Assembly: GCF_022768985.1 (NCBI RefSeq) | Contig: NZ_JALEKL010000011.1 | Location: 1 to 64,000 of the forward strand | Direction: 5' to 3' | DNA length: 64,000 nucleotides | From: Methanosphaera sp. | GTDB taxonomy: Archaea > Methanobacteriota > Methanobacteria > Methanobacteriales > Methanobacteriaceae | Part shown: positions 20,715 to 25,976 of the stretch, piece by piece | Layout: every line of letters starts with the position of its first letter | How positions within the stretch are numbered: the first letter of the stretch is position 1 | Program-made: the position numbers and the translations under genes | Notes under the pieces: generated by a model | Told to the model about the DNA's origin: nothing | The model's input: the letters and a program-made list of their open reading frames with translations, nothing else | Database searches by the model: none

Positions 20715-22916
20715 TTATTTTCTAAGTACTTCTGGTGTGTATCTTTTAAGTAGTAATGATAGTGTTATTACACTTACAGAGCTTAGTGCCATTGCAAGTG
20801 CTCCATATTCTGGCATAAATACTACATGCCATGGATATAGTATTCCTGCAGCTATTGGTACTAGTATTATGTTATATGCAAATGCCCAGAAGAGGTTAAG
20901 TTTTACCCTTGATATTGTCTTTTTACTTATTTGAAGTCCTGCAACAGCATTAAGCAGATCACCATTAATAAGTATAATATCACCTGAATCTATTGCAACA
21001 TCTGTACCTGTACCTATTGCAATTCCTACATTTGCCTGACTTAATGATGGTGCATCATTAATTCCATCACCAATAAATGCAACAACTTCTCCTTTATCTT
21101 GTAATTGTTTTACATAGGCTAGTTTTTCACCTGGAAGAAGTTCTGCTTTTACCTCATCAATACCTACTTTTTGTGCAATAATCTGGGATGTATTTATATT
21201 ATCTCCACTAACCATTGTAGTTTTAATACCCATTGAATGTAAGTAGTCTATTGCCTTTTTACTGTTATCTTTAATTACATCAGCAACAGAAATAAGTGAA
21301 ATAACTCCACTACTTTTTGATGCCATAATAATTGTAGTTTTCATTTCAAGTTCTTGAGCTTTAAGATCTGTTAGTAGTTTATCTGAAATTGTGATATTTT
21401 CTGATTCTATTAATTTCTTATTTCCTATATAGTACTCATCATCACATATTTTTCCAACTATTCCTTTTCCTGAAATATTTTCAAAATCATCTACATCATA
21501 CAATTCAAATCCATTTTTATCTTCATTATTAAAGAGTGCTTCTGCTATTGGATGTTGTGAATGTATCTCTAGTGATCTTGCAATTTTTATTATTTCATCA
21601 TCACTTAAGTTTGAATAATTAATTACATCAGATAATACTGGTTGTCCTACTGTTATTGTTCCTGTTTTATCAAATAATATGTGTGTTATCTTATCTGATA
21701 CTTCTATTGTTTCACCATCTTTAATTAAAATACCATGTTTTGCTCCAAGACCTACACCTACTGTTAGTGCTGTTGGAATTGCAAGACCTAATGCACATGG
21801 ACATGCAACAACTACTACTGATATAAAGATGCTAAGACTATACATGAAGCCATTTCCTATTATTACATACCATATTATGAATGATATAAATGCAATTAAT
21901 AGTATTGCTGGTATAAATATTCCAATAACTTTATCAGCAAGATGTTGTATTGGTGGTGTTGAATTTTGAGCTTCTTGAACCATTGTAATAATCTGTGAAA
22001 GTACTGTTTTTTCACCAGTATTTGTTACATAGATCTTAAATGATCCATCCTTATTTATTGATCCTGCTACTACTTCATCATCTACATCTTTTAGTATTGG
22101 TATTGATTCACCTGTTATTAATGATTCATCAACATAGCTTCTTCCTTCAATTATACGTCCATCTGCTGGTATTTTTTCACCAGGTTTTATAACTAAGATA
22201 TTGCCTTTTAGAACATCGTTTATGTCAACTTTTTGTTGTATAATTTTTCCATCAATTTTCTTTTCAACTGTTGCCTCTGTTGCTTTAAGTTGCATGAGTG
22301 AATCTATTGAATCTGATGTTTTTGATTTTGCCTTATCTTCTAGGTATTTACCAAGCATTAGAAATGATCCAAGCATTAATGTTGTATCATAAAGCATAAA
22401 ATTTGAATTTCCAAGTAAATGGAATGTACTTAGTAAGCTTGCAATAAATGCTATACCAATTCCTAGTGAATACATAACATCCATGTTAAGATTCTTATTT
22501 TTTAGTGAAAAATAGCCTGATTTAAAGATTGGATATGATACATAAATAAGTGGAATTATACAGATAATAAGTGATATTATTGATTTTTCATTATGTCCAA
22601 TTCCAAGATCTGCAAACATTATAAACATTAAAATTGCTGAAAATATAAATCCTACAACTAATCTATTTAGTTTTTCTTTCAGATTCTTTTCATGTAACTG
22701 TTTGATCTTATCATTATTTATGGAATTTTTATCTACAACACCAAGATATTTAAACCCAATTTTGTTAATTCTATCTGCTATATCATCTAACTGGACAACT
22801 GTTGGATTATAAAGTATGTCTGCTGTTTGTGATACTAAATTAACATAAATTGAGTAAACTCCTGGCATTCTTGATACTGCGGTGGTTATTGATCTTGAAC
22901 ACATGACACAGGTCAT
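20715..22916 (-). CDS. copA: Cu(I)-exporting P1B-type ATPase, split from its first HMA domain
   Basis: The 733-residue (as read from ATG 22916) P1B ATPase exports Cu(I). It shows the HMA motif MTCVMC, TGES (about 268), the metal-site CPC in VACPCALGLAIP (about 372), phosphorylation motif DKTGTIT (about 416) and GDGINDAP (about 628). The ATG falls inside the HMA domain: upstream in-frame codons read T-I-N-I-G-G before MTC, exactly the missing first strand, back to a TAA created by an A9 tract shared with the end of the CopZ-like gene. There is no ribosome site at this ATG. A -1 shift on A9 would join both genes into a standard two-HMA CopA. Confidence 0.93.
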   Translation of the reverse strand: MTCVMCSRSITTAVSRMPGVYSIYVNLVSQTADILYNPTVVQLDDIADRINKIGFKYLGVVDKNSINNDKIKQLHEKNLKEKLNRLVVGFIFSAILMFIMFADLGIGHNEKSIISLIICIIPLIYVSYPIFKSGYFSLKNKNLNMDVMYSLGIGIAFIASLLSTFHLLGNSNFMLYDTTLMLGSFLMLGKYLEDKAKSKTSDSIDSLMQLKATEATVEKKIDGKIIQQKVDINDVLKGNILVIKPGEKIPADGRIIEGRSYVDESLITGESIPILKDVDDEVVAGSINKDGSFKIYVTNTGEKTVLSQIITMVQEAQNSTPPIQHLADKVIGIFIPAILLIAFISFIIWYVIIGNGFMYSLSIFISVVVVACPCALGLAIPTALTVGVGLGAKHGILIKDGETIEVSDKITHILFDKTGTITVGQPVLSDVINYSNLSDDEIIKIARSLEIHSQHPIAEALFNNEDKNGFELYDVDDFENISGKGIVGKICDDEYYIGNKKLIESENITISDKLLTDLKAQELEMKTTIIMASKSSGVISLISVADVIKDNSKKAIDYLHSMGIKTTMVSGDNINTSQIIAQKVGIDEVKAELLPGEKLAYVKQLQDKGEVVAFIGDGINDAPSLSQANVGIAIGTGTDVAIDSGDIILINGDLLNAVAGLQISKKTISRVKLNLFWAFAYNIILVPIAAGILYPWHVVFMPEYGALAMALSSVSVITLSLLLKRYTPEVLRK

Positions 22917-22927
22917 GCCCCCAATAT

Positions 22928-23155
22928 TTATAGTTTTTTTTTAATAGTTGCTGGGAATCCTACCATGTCAAGTGTACTGATAATTTCCTCTGCATCTACA
23001 TTTTCATCATCATATGTTACATCTACATTTTTTGTTTGAAGATCACAGTTTACTGATTCTATATTTTCATTGTTTGTTAGTGTTTTTGTTATTGTGTTTA
23101 TGCATGCATCACACATCATATCTTCAACTTTAAATGTTTCAGTTTTTTGAGCCAT
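22928..23155 (-). CDS. copZ: CopZ-like copper chaperone / first HMA domain of CopA
   Basis: The 75-residue heavy-metal-associated domain has the Cu(I)-binding loop MMCDAC (about residues 14-19) and the ferredoxin-like fold pattern ending GFPATIKKKL. It has a good ribosome site (GGGGTGA, 7 bases before ATG 23155). It terminates right after AAA AAA AAA CTA. The ATPase gene reads in the -1 frame from that point, so this peptide may be both a free chaperone (0 frame) and the N-terminal domain of full CopA (-1 frame). Confidence 0.9.
   Translation of the reverse strand: MAQKTETFKVEDMMCDACINTITKTLTNNENIESVNCDLQTKNVDVTYDDENVDAEEIISTLDMVGFPATIKKKL
22934..22942 (-). other. A9 slippery tract between copZ and copA
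   Basis: On the minus strand, codons ATT AAA AAA AAA CTA TAA end the CopZ-like frame. A -1 slip on A AAA AAA continues as ACT ATA AAT ATT GGG GGC ATG ACC, i.e. T-I-N-I-G-G-M-T, in the ATPase frame. A 6-bp hairpin (CATGAC/GTCATG, 22902-22917) lies about 16 bases downstream. A single missing A in the assembly would produce the same picture. Confidence 0.6.
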
Positions 23156-23346
23156 TATACTTTCACCCCGTTTTAATTTAATTTCTTATAAAATAATTTA
23201 GTATTTTGTTATAATTTATTTAATTTTTTTTTATGTAAAATTTTTTACATTAGTAATTTATTAACTCAGCTCTTAATATACTTTTAGGTATAACTAAATT
23301 AGGTTTTATAAAAAAAGAAAAAGATGGTTGAAATGACAATGCAACC

Positions 23347-23754
23347 TTAATTAATTACAATAGTTGCATCATCAGCATCTACTGTTATATTATCATTATC
23401 TGATACTGTTGCGACAATATCAACATTAGGATTGTCAACCATAGGTATTTTTGAAATAATAGCACCTATTGCAATAATAGGTTCAGCATTCTGACAAATA
23501 ATAGCCTTTGGTGCTGTATTATTTTTTGCCATTTGGTAGATAACATAGGATCCAACAGTTGAACCTTTACCTGATGGCATAACTAAAATCTTATCTGTGA
23601 TACATTTATCAAATAATTCATTATTTTTATCTATCACAATACCAGTTTTTGGATCTACTCCACCAAGAAAACTAATAGGATCTTTTGTTACTATTGCATC
23701 ACCTGTTATTTTTCCTTTTGATATCTGTCTACAGTTTATAGTTGTATCTGACAT
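23347..23754 (-). CDS. aconitase-X swivel-domain (DUF126) small subunit
   Basis: The 135-residue DUF126 swivel domain has CRQISKGKITGDAIVT, PISFLGGVDPKTGIV and the PSGKGSTVGSYVIYQM loop. In archaea, AcnX small and large subunits form phosphomevalonate dehydratase of the modified mevalonate pathway to isoprenoid lipids, which is the likely role here. The large catalytic subunit is not in the window. It follows the repeat protein at 23796-25535 by 41 bases on the same strand. Confidence 0.87.
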   Translation of the reverse strand: MSDTTINCRQISKGKITGDAIVTKDPISFLGGVDPKTGIVIDKNNELFDKCITDKILVMPSGKGSTVGSYVIYQMAKNNTAPKAIICQNAEPIIAIGAIISKIPMVDNPNVDIVATVSDNDNITVDADDATIVIN

Positions 23755-23795: not shown

Positions 23796-25535
23796 TTATA
23801 ATAAACCTTGTGATCTTAAGTATTCAGGGAATGTTAAGTTTTCACCATCTGCAGATTTAGCTGATGGTTTTTCTGCAGGTGCTTCTTTAATGTCACAGTC
23901 ATCTGCTTTATCACATACATCACAGTTTTCTGCTTCCTGACATTCTTGTTCATCTTTAGCTTCTACTTCTGTTTTTGGTGCTTCAGCTGCAGGTGCATCA
24001 GATCCTTCGATAAGACCTTGTGCTCTGAGAGATTGTGTGAATGATCCACCAGCAGGAGCAGCTTTAGGAGCATCAGCTTTAGGTGCAGCTTTAGGTGCTT
24101 CTTCTACTTTTTCTTCACATTTACATTCATCTTTAGGTGCTTCAGCTACAGGTGCATCAGATCCTGCAATAAGACCTTGTGCTCTGAGAGATTGTGTGAA
24201 TGATCCACCAGCAGGAGCAGCTTTAGGAGCATCAGCCTTAGGTGTTTCTTTAGTTTCACATTTACATTCATCTTTAGGAGCTTCTTCAGATTTTGGAGCT
24301 TCAGCTTTAGGTGCATCGGATCCTACAATTAATCCTTGTTCTCTGAGAGATTGTGTGAATGATTTTCCATCTGTATTTTCTTGTGTATTTGCTTTAGCTT
24401 TCATTTCTCCAACATCCTCTTTTACTTCTTTTACTTTTTCTTCAACATCTTTTGTTATTTCAACCATTTTTTGTGTTGTTTGTTTTGTTTGTTCAATTAT
24501 TCCATCTGCAACTTCTTTTACTTTTTCAGTTACTCCTTGTTCTTTTAGAAGTTGTGTGAATGAAACATTTTTAGATTTTGATGAAGCTTCTTTTACTTTT
24601 TCTGCTACTTTATCAATTTCTTTTTCTACATTTTTAATGCTTTCTTTAGCTTTAGCTTTAGCTTTTTCTGATTTTTCTTTTGCTTTAGCTTCTTTTTCTG
24701 CTTTTGCTTTAGCTTTTGCTTCTGCTTTAGCTGCATCTTCTTCTTTGATTCTTTGTTCTACTTTTTCTTCTCTTGCTTTTTGTTTTGCAAGTTTTCTTTT
24801 CTCTTTTTCTTCTTTATTTTTAAGTCTTTCTTCTTCTTCATCTTTGATTTGTTCTGCTTCTTGTGCTGCTTCTTCAGATTCTAGAAGTGCTTGTTGAAGA
24901 TCTGCATTTTCTTCAAAATTGTATTTATCTACTACTTTTTCTGCTTTTGCTTTTGCTTCTTTTTCTGCTTTTGCTTTTGCTTTTGCTTCTCTTTCTTGTT
25001 TTTGAATTTCTGCTATGTATTTTTTAGCATTTTCTACATCTTCTTTTGTAGCTTTCATAGATTCATCCCCAGTTTCTTCCTCAACAACTTCTTCTTCAGA
25101 TTCTTCTACAACTTCTTCTTTAGTTTCAACAACAGGTTCCTCTGCAGATTCAGATTCTTCTACAACTTCCTCTTTAGTTTCAACAACAGGTTCCTCTGTA
25201 TCTTCAGATTCTTCTACAGGTGCTGATTCTTCTTCAGATTTTGCTGCTTCTTCTGCTTCTGCTTTAGCTTCTGCTTCTGCTTTAGCTTTAGCTTCTGCTT
25301 CTGCTTTTGCTTTAGCTTCAGCTTCTTCTTTATTTTTTCTTATGATGATTTTAGATAAACCTGGTGCAACTCTTTTTTTAAGTTTAATTCCTGTATTTTT
25401 TAAGAGATTTGGTTTTTTACTTACGTATTTATCTTCACCTTTATCGTTAGGATCAACATCTTTTTTCTGTGATTTTGGTTTTATGTGATTTTTAAAAAGT
25501 ACATTTGATGTTTTTGTATTTCTTTTTTCACTCAT
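23796..25535 (-). CDS. Lys/Glu/Ala-rich repeat protein with five SFTQ-type motifs
   Basis: The 579-residue highly charged protein starts at ATG 25535 (MSEKRNTKTSN). It has a basic N-terminus, long KAKAEAEAKAE-type helix or coiled coil, acidic EEVVEESE repeats, and a C-terminal half with five spaced copies of a peptide: SFTQLLKEQG, SFTQSLREQGLI, SFTQSLRAQGLI (twice) and a terminal LTFPEYLRSQGLL. Linkers contain Cys pairs (ECKCE). Two units are a 159-bp near-perfect DNA repeat. There is no membrane segment. I do not recognise the family. It may be a scaffold with repeated docking peptides; a related peptide occurs in the protein at 62745. Confidence 0.8.
   Translation of the reverse strand: MSEKRNTKTSNVLFKNHIKPKSQKKDVDPNDKGEDKYVSKKPNLLKNTGIKLKKRVAPGLSKIIIRKNKEEAEAKAKAEAEAKAKAEAEAKAEAEEAAKSEEESAPVEESEDTEEPVVETKEEVVEESESAEEPVVETKEEVVEESEEEVVEEETGDESMKATKEDVENAKKYIAEIQKQEREAKAKAKAEKEAKAKAEKVVDKYNFEENADLQQALLESEEAAQEAEQIKDEEEERLKNKEEKEKRKLAKQKAREEKVEQRIKEEDAAKAEAKAKAKAEKEAKAKEKSEKAKAKAKESIKNVEKEIDKVAEKVKEASSKSKNVSFTQLLKEQGVTEKVKEVADGIIEQTKQTTQKMVEITKDVEEKVKEVKEDVGEMKAKANTQENTDGKSFTQSLREQGLIVGSDAPKAEAPKSEEAPKDECKCETKETPKADAPKAAPAGGSFTQSLRAQGLIAGSDAPVAEAPKDECKCEEKVEEAPKAAPKADAPKAAPAGGSFTQSLRAQGLIEGSDAPAAEAPKTEVEAKDEQECQEAENCDVCDKADDCDIKEAPAEKPSAKSADGENLTFPEYLRSQGLL
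24021..24338 (-). repeat. 159-bp in-gene tandem repeat
   Basis: The unit carrying SFTQSLRAQGLI-GSDAP plus its Ala/Pro/Lys linker is repeated with a 159-base offset (for example the same TGCTCTGAGAG string at 24021 and 24180). A more diverged third unit with SFTQSLREQGLI lies around 24310-24370. It encodes 53 residues per unit and suggests recent internal expansion. Confidence 0.75.
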
Positions 25536-25976
25536 CTTATATTCCAACCTATTTTATTAATTCCCCAAATTTTTTATAACTTAATGTAAATTCCATTTAA
25601 ATTTAAATTAAATCCGTGATAATTTAATTTAAGAAAATAATATTTTCTGTTATTATATTAAGTTTTGTTAATTGATTATAATGAATTTTTTTAAACTAAA
25701 GACTATTATTATGAGTTAAATTAGTTTAAAATTATAAGTTAATATTTTTCTGTAAATACTCCTACATTATTTTATGAAATAAAAATTATCATAATTAATC
25801 ATAATTAATAATTATATTTAAATTTATATTGTTTGTTTATTATTAACTTATCTAATAATAATGTAATATTTAATATAAAATATTCAAAAAAAGTCCTGTT
25901 AATTAATTGAGATATTTTTAAAAAAAAGAAAAGTTGATTATAAAAAATAAAATAATTAAAAAAAAAAGTTTAAAAT
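25536..25976. other. intergenic region upstream of the repeat-protein gene
   Basis: About 440 bases of AT-rich sequence lie between secG and the repeat-protein start. I see no coding sequence. It should hold the promoter of the repeat-protein gene, but no TATA box stands out from the AT-rich background. Confidence 0.5.

Follow-up and report, generated by a model that had tools for sequence, protein, structure and literature searches.

A nine-adenine tract in Methanosphaera copA as a predicted recoding site for a CopZ-like chaperone and a copper-exporting ATPase

Programmed -1 frameshifting in Escherichia coli copA, giving CopA(Z), is said to have been reported in 2017 by Meydan et al. and by Drees et al. 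The slippery site of that gene is other than a run of nine adenines (A9) and is accompanied by an mRNA pseudoknot. Passages of three papers describe the chaperone as a product of -1 frameshifting in E. coli copA (PMC5009743, PMC9548414, PMC10187127). In some dnaX genes the long product is made only through the frameshift, and the stop of the 0 frame terminates the short one (Atkins et al. 2016, PMC5009743), and in E. coli dnaX, pairing by a sole tRNA-Lys makes the site shifty (PMC5009743). Magnesium chelatase cassettes in E. coli gave 10, 40 and 63% frameshifting at 7, 9 and 11 A's, respectively (Antonov et al. 2013, PMC3711429). Few cases of recoding are on record for ordinary cellular genes of archaea: -1 recoding is proven in fucA1, with magnesium chelatase a proposed case, and a 2021 review, in whose text the words copper and ATPase are absent, names fucA1 and viral genes, with magnesium chelatase as a presumed member, and has one proven -1 case (PMC8211752). 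Searching the open-access literature for Methanosphaera, frameshifting and the copper pump returned only unrelated papers; recoding of copA in archaea is apparently new as a report, as the original prediction for this locus had supposed, and a report outside that literature may exist.

Here we analyse a copper locus in a stretch of 64,000 nucleotides of Methanosphaera sp. (the window; positions 1 to 64,000 of contig NZ_JALEKL010000011.1), the features of which are collected in Table 1. Translation bears out the reading frames as first described. The 0 frame ends AAA AAA AAA CTA TAA (...GFPAT I KKK L stop), and the -1 frame, shut just 5' of the tract in the window's genome, reads (KKK)TINIGGMTC... 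and is open as far as 20718, over 739 codons. The first ATG of the -1 frame (22916) lies 11 bases behind the 0-frame stop and, on inspection, has no Shine-Dalgarno sequence at workable spacing, whereas copZ has GGGGTGA. From comparison of the sequences we consider it highly probable that one gene gives both a CopZ-like chaperone and a two-HMA pump via programmed recoding at A9, by the ribosome or by RNA polymerase. Standard decoding of the 0 frame would stop one codon past the tract and yield the free chaperone, and a fraction of events would shift frame on the A tract, giving the two-HMA Cu(I) export ATPase. Either the ribosome, with tRNA-Lys slipping by -1 on A_AAA_AAA, or RNA polymerase, inserting one extra A in the mRNA, could make the shift, and the same protein would result, with the predicted junction ...IKKK-TINIGGM... 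within the spanning stretch ...ATIKKKTINIGGM.... That the slip occurs in vivo, like any rate it may have, is something we infer from these comparisons.

Table 1. Features of the copper locus, in window coordinates
Feature	Position	Strand	Basis
copZ-like 0-frame ORF, 75 aa, single HMA domain	22928..23155	minus	translation; Pfam HMA
copZ Shine-Dalgarno GGGGTGA	23163..23169	minus	sequence; similar sites in most congeners
Putative slippery tract, A9, read as three AAA Lys codons in 0 frame	22934..22942	minus	T9 on plus strand
0-frame stop TAA, one codon past A9	22928..22930	minus	TAA or TGA in 18/18 A9 genomes
-1-frame ORF, HMA2 and predicted P1B-1 Cu-ATPase, 739 codons + stop	20715..22934	minus	translation; TIGR01511
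TINIGG, six codons from tract to first ATG	22917..22934	minus	conserved as -1-frame codons; AlphaFold
First -1-frame ATG, within GMTC motif	22914..22916	minus	sequence; no usable Shine-Dalgarno
Local hairpin CATGAC-CTGT-GTCATG	22902..22917	minus	original prediction; unconserved, judged outside the signal

The predicted arrangement shares with E. coli copA a single gene for a free HMA chaperone and a full pump, with the change of frame after the first HMA domain. The layout is reversed with respect to that of E. coli, in which the 0 frame gives the pump and the -1 frame the chaperone, and the A9 site, at which no structure was found, differs from the other site and pseudoknot of the bacterial gene. 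Such reversed logic is not unprecedented in recoding generally: in dnaX, too, an A-rich site lets one gene make a short and a long product, and the Chlorobium type has the reversed layout, its 0-frame stop coming right after the site (PMC5009743), although dnaX is a different gene, bacterial, with a known type of slip in E. coli (ribosomal) and in Thermus thermophilus (RNA polymerase). Magnesium chelatase resembles the locus in having adjoining ORFs joined by a -1 shift at A7-A11, fused relatives, and archaeal members in Methanocaldococcus and Methanococcus (PMC3711429), but it is another protein family with no pair of chaperone and pump. By analogy, A9 alone may be efficient by one route or the other, because the A9 chelatase cassette reached its 40%. 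Saccharolobus solfataricus fucA1 is likewise a cellular -1 frameshift in an archaeon, and an experimentally proven one (PMC8211752); the passages on it in that review describe a single functional enzyme and claim neither a second product nor conservation throughout a genus. If our reading is true, Methanosphaera would hold a second, independently built copper-pump gene that makes its own chaperone, archaeal and with the outputs swapped, and gene callers will split such loci into two genes with a truncated pump.

The 0-frame product matches Pfam HMA (1.4e-14, 54.6 bits) and has the metal site CDAC (CxxC), so that the 75-residue ORF has the form of a CopZ chaperone, a stand-alone HMA domain with CxxC; its best NCBIfam matches are CopZ models, with scores under their cut-offs. 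P1B-1 Cu(I) ATPases are marked by the motifs CPC, YNxxxxP and MxxSS. All three are present in the translated pump, as in a P1B-1 Cu(I)-exporting ATPase (CopA), and TIGR01511, copper-translocating P-type ATPase, matches it at 571.6 bits against a cut-off of 397. The copper functions of both proteins are predicted from this sequence evidence. The HMA2 profile match starts at the codon that holds the final A of the tract; taken from the first ATG, the match scores 45.2 instead of 52.8 bits and is short of its first six profile positions. In an AlphaFold model of the in-frame fusion of one congener (L012, see below; mean pLDDT 90.7), the first strand of HMA2 comprises residues 71-78, KKKTLNIG, wholly before the ATG, and by this model TINIGG supplies most of the first β-strand of the domain. 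Together with codon conservation, these results agree with the original prediction that a -1 slip restores the strand (TINIGGMTC).

The pump is present in all 20 Methanosphaera genomes of the sample, 18 of which have the exact A9, the same offset and an intact -1 frame; each of these 18 has one sense codon past the tract and then a 0-frame TAA or TGA (NTA-A or CTG-A). The congeners' pumps share 54-76% identity with that of the window, and the frames are intact in all full-length copies. In the pump tree, where the outgroup genera fall outside Methanosphaera, L020, an A9 locus on a long branch, forms one side of the first split and the rest of the genus the other. A9 is therefore found on either side of the deepest split of the genus, and in the 10 outgroup rows sampled the frame is unbroken. 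Because this deepest branch carries it, the tract would most simply be older than the genus crown and have been lost twice. Long-term conservation of both break and site with the two frames intact, as expected of programmed -1 recoding, is thus seen in 18/20 genomes, deep split included. Full-length matches in other Methanobacteriaceae genera have open frames of ~800-870 aa, with both HMA domains in one frame in the rows inspected; the Lys run at the HMA1-HMA2 joint is absent from the rows aligned from these genera, and the Lys residues are therefore not a family trait. This comparison of the junction across relatives strongly supports the layout first proposed, chaperone in the 0 frame and pump in the -1 frame, a mirror of E. 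coli copA. A wider scan, over 84,980 species genomes, for A9 with an HMA motif G-M-x-C-x-x-C 8-26 bases on returned 107 stretches; an HMA that lies upstream and enters the run out of frame was found only at Methanosphaera-type loci, the scan being limited to A9 sites and possibly lacking records near the window's genome.

Synonymous conservation in the gene is highest at the tract (ratio 1.29 in a 12-codon window; mean 1.00, sd 0.09) and only mild downstream (1.19 at codons +19 to +30). Its Lys codons, for which AAGAAGAAG would be a silent alternative, are all AAA; in some of these species AAG takes up to half of the Lys codons, and the AAA share is only 45-65% in L018, L013, L023 and L011. 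The codon preceding the run is ATT, ATC, GTT, GTC or TTT and never ATA in 16 non-duplicate genomes, counts that come from related species and are not independent draws; ATA makes up 44% of Ile codons and before A9 would extend the run. Coding runs of at least nine A's number 8 in the window's genome against 92 expected from synonymous shuffles, with genes called mechanically as the longest ORFs of at least 100 aa, and as the minimum run length rises from 6 to 7, 8, 9 and 10 A's, the ratio of observed to expected runs falls from 0.87 to 0.60, 0.25, 0.09 and 0.04. Among exact A7 runs, those in the A_AAA_AAA phase are avoided most (0.67, vs 0.83 and 0.88 in the other phases). A9 is avoided by the genome yet retained at copA, where, in 1.606 of the 1.608 Mb, stands the sole run of at least nine A's where a frame closes and a long one in -1 carries on.

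As to what slips, the original prediction of a programmed ribosomal frameshift holds for the recoding and is too specific in the word ribosomal. Programmed slippage by RNA polymerase, which would add an extra A to part of the transcripts so that A9 mRNA gives CopZ and A10 mRNA the pump (and, in M. stadtmanae, would supply the chaperone by losing an A), yields the same protein, and we give it somewhat less than an even chance. It would account for the exact retention of nine A's, while a ribosomal heptamer needs seven, and it needs no visible structural stimulator; nine A's or T's are sites of efficient slippage for bacterial RNA polymerases (PMC5009743), the avoidance of A runs holds in all codon phases and grows with length, and the A10 congener would be able to make the same pair by a reverse slip. 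Against it, elongation slippage by an archaeal RNA polymerase was not found documented in the open-access literature, and two observations favour the ribosome: ARAGORN found only one tRNA-Lys gene, with a UUU anticodon, as in E. coli, and avoidance is strongest in the A_AAA_AAA phase. Because of these two, both weak as arguments, we lean slightly to the ribosome between routes that we regard as nearly equal.

A small hairpin just downstream, part of the first description of the locus, is present in the window but was rejected as a stimulator: relatives break the stem (e.g. AATGACTTGTGTAATG), downstream regions of six species show no local folding beyond that of shuffled sequences (z from -1.62 to +0.67), and no Rfam family was found at the locus. 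The hairpin is a by-product of encoding MTCVM. Hairpin conservation, local folds and tract alignments gave no sign of a stimulatory structure that is conserved, or of an upstream signal.

The two genomes without A9 differ from each other. L012 (G016, a single contig of 1,767,403 bases), which we take to be M. stadtmanae DSM 3091, has A10 and a single 810-codon in-frame fusion. Ten A's, the length at which the original prediction expected simply one CopA with two HMA domains, were found in this congener only, and sequence comparison points to a locus state that does toggle between A9 and A10 inside the genus. By HMA domain count this genome is without any further chaperone gene, and because of this and its A10 it would either live without a free chaperone or slip in the opposite direction. 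In the other genome, G018, the joint is GAAAAACAAA, in one frame and with A9 gone (L019); the CxxC of HMA1 is lost (MSDKSS), and the fused copA is closely preceded by a separate copZ that has a ribosome site of its own (L019 and L151; G018:C103, about 1743-1928 and 2100-2315). Here duplication seems to have taken over from the slip, a pattern expected if the slip served to supply free chaperone, and one that serves as an illustration, not a statistic (one genome, 87% complete). HMA domains were counted over 139 Methanobacteriaceae genomes: Methanosphaera genomes have two each, the pair at the copper locus, except G012 (four) and G018 (three), and 18 have no other chaperone gene; many of the family's genomes outside Methanosphaera have, in the rows listed, three, a fused pump and a small separate HMA protein. 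The genus thus offers natural experiments on the purpose of the slip, with A9, with A10, and with a lost site and separate copZ. A more speculative, rather doubtful extension is an RNA polymerase slippage switch at A9, in which drift of the run length within the genus would flip the genome-encoded product, chaperone at A9 and pump at A10 (M. stadtmanae), the partner being made by slippage until duplication, as in G018, ends the need.

Two ordinary genes, with the pump started by reinitiation at the ATG 11 bases behind the copZ stop, would be an alternative arrangement, and translational coupling is common among operon neighbours; an ATG does stand close 3' of the 0-frame stop in all A9 genomes. 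The position of this ATG, however, is fixed by the GMTC metal motif, and it lacks a usable Shine-Dalgarno sequence. The codons from the tract to the ATG, T-I/L-N-I/V-G/A-G, vary in the A9 genomes at six of six third positions, two first positions and one second position. Because variation concentrates at the third positions of the -1 frame, these six codons, which form the first strand of HMA2, are, on this substitution pattern, translated in that frame, and the -1 frame upstream of the junction is without a start codon in many of these species. Separate genes would not require an exact A9 either, and the outgroups and two congeners have in-frame fusions, so that we regard this explanation as very improbable. 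A sequencing error or a recent inactivating frameshift, which the error-prone nature of A9 homopolymers and the A10 of one congener might suggest, merits practically no weight, because A9 recurs in 18 separate genomes, including the deepest branch and the single- or two-contig assemblies G003, G008 and G011, and the pump frame, conserved throughout the genus, is intact in every full-length copy. Recoding at A9 remains by far the best account of the locus.

Some further features were observed. In G012 (L011 and L152, G012:C117) part of copZ-A9-copA is duplicated in tandem; the second pump ends at 179 codons and is followed by an AcnX-like fragment, and the duplication could be an assembly artefact. 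Elsewhere in the window's genome, 15 other A7/A8/A10/T7/T8 junctions of shifted frames occur (e.g. G000:C1 near 24255 and C8 near 82053), which are probably neighbouring genes or due to chance. No copper regulator was seen in the neighbourhood of the copper locus, which is adjoined on the same strand by a small protein with a Pfam aconitase X swivel domain (window 23347-23754). Beyond it, a 583-aa protein rich in Lys, Glu and Ala (window 23796-25547) carries near-terminal repeats, SFTQSLRAQGLI.GSDAP.
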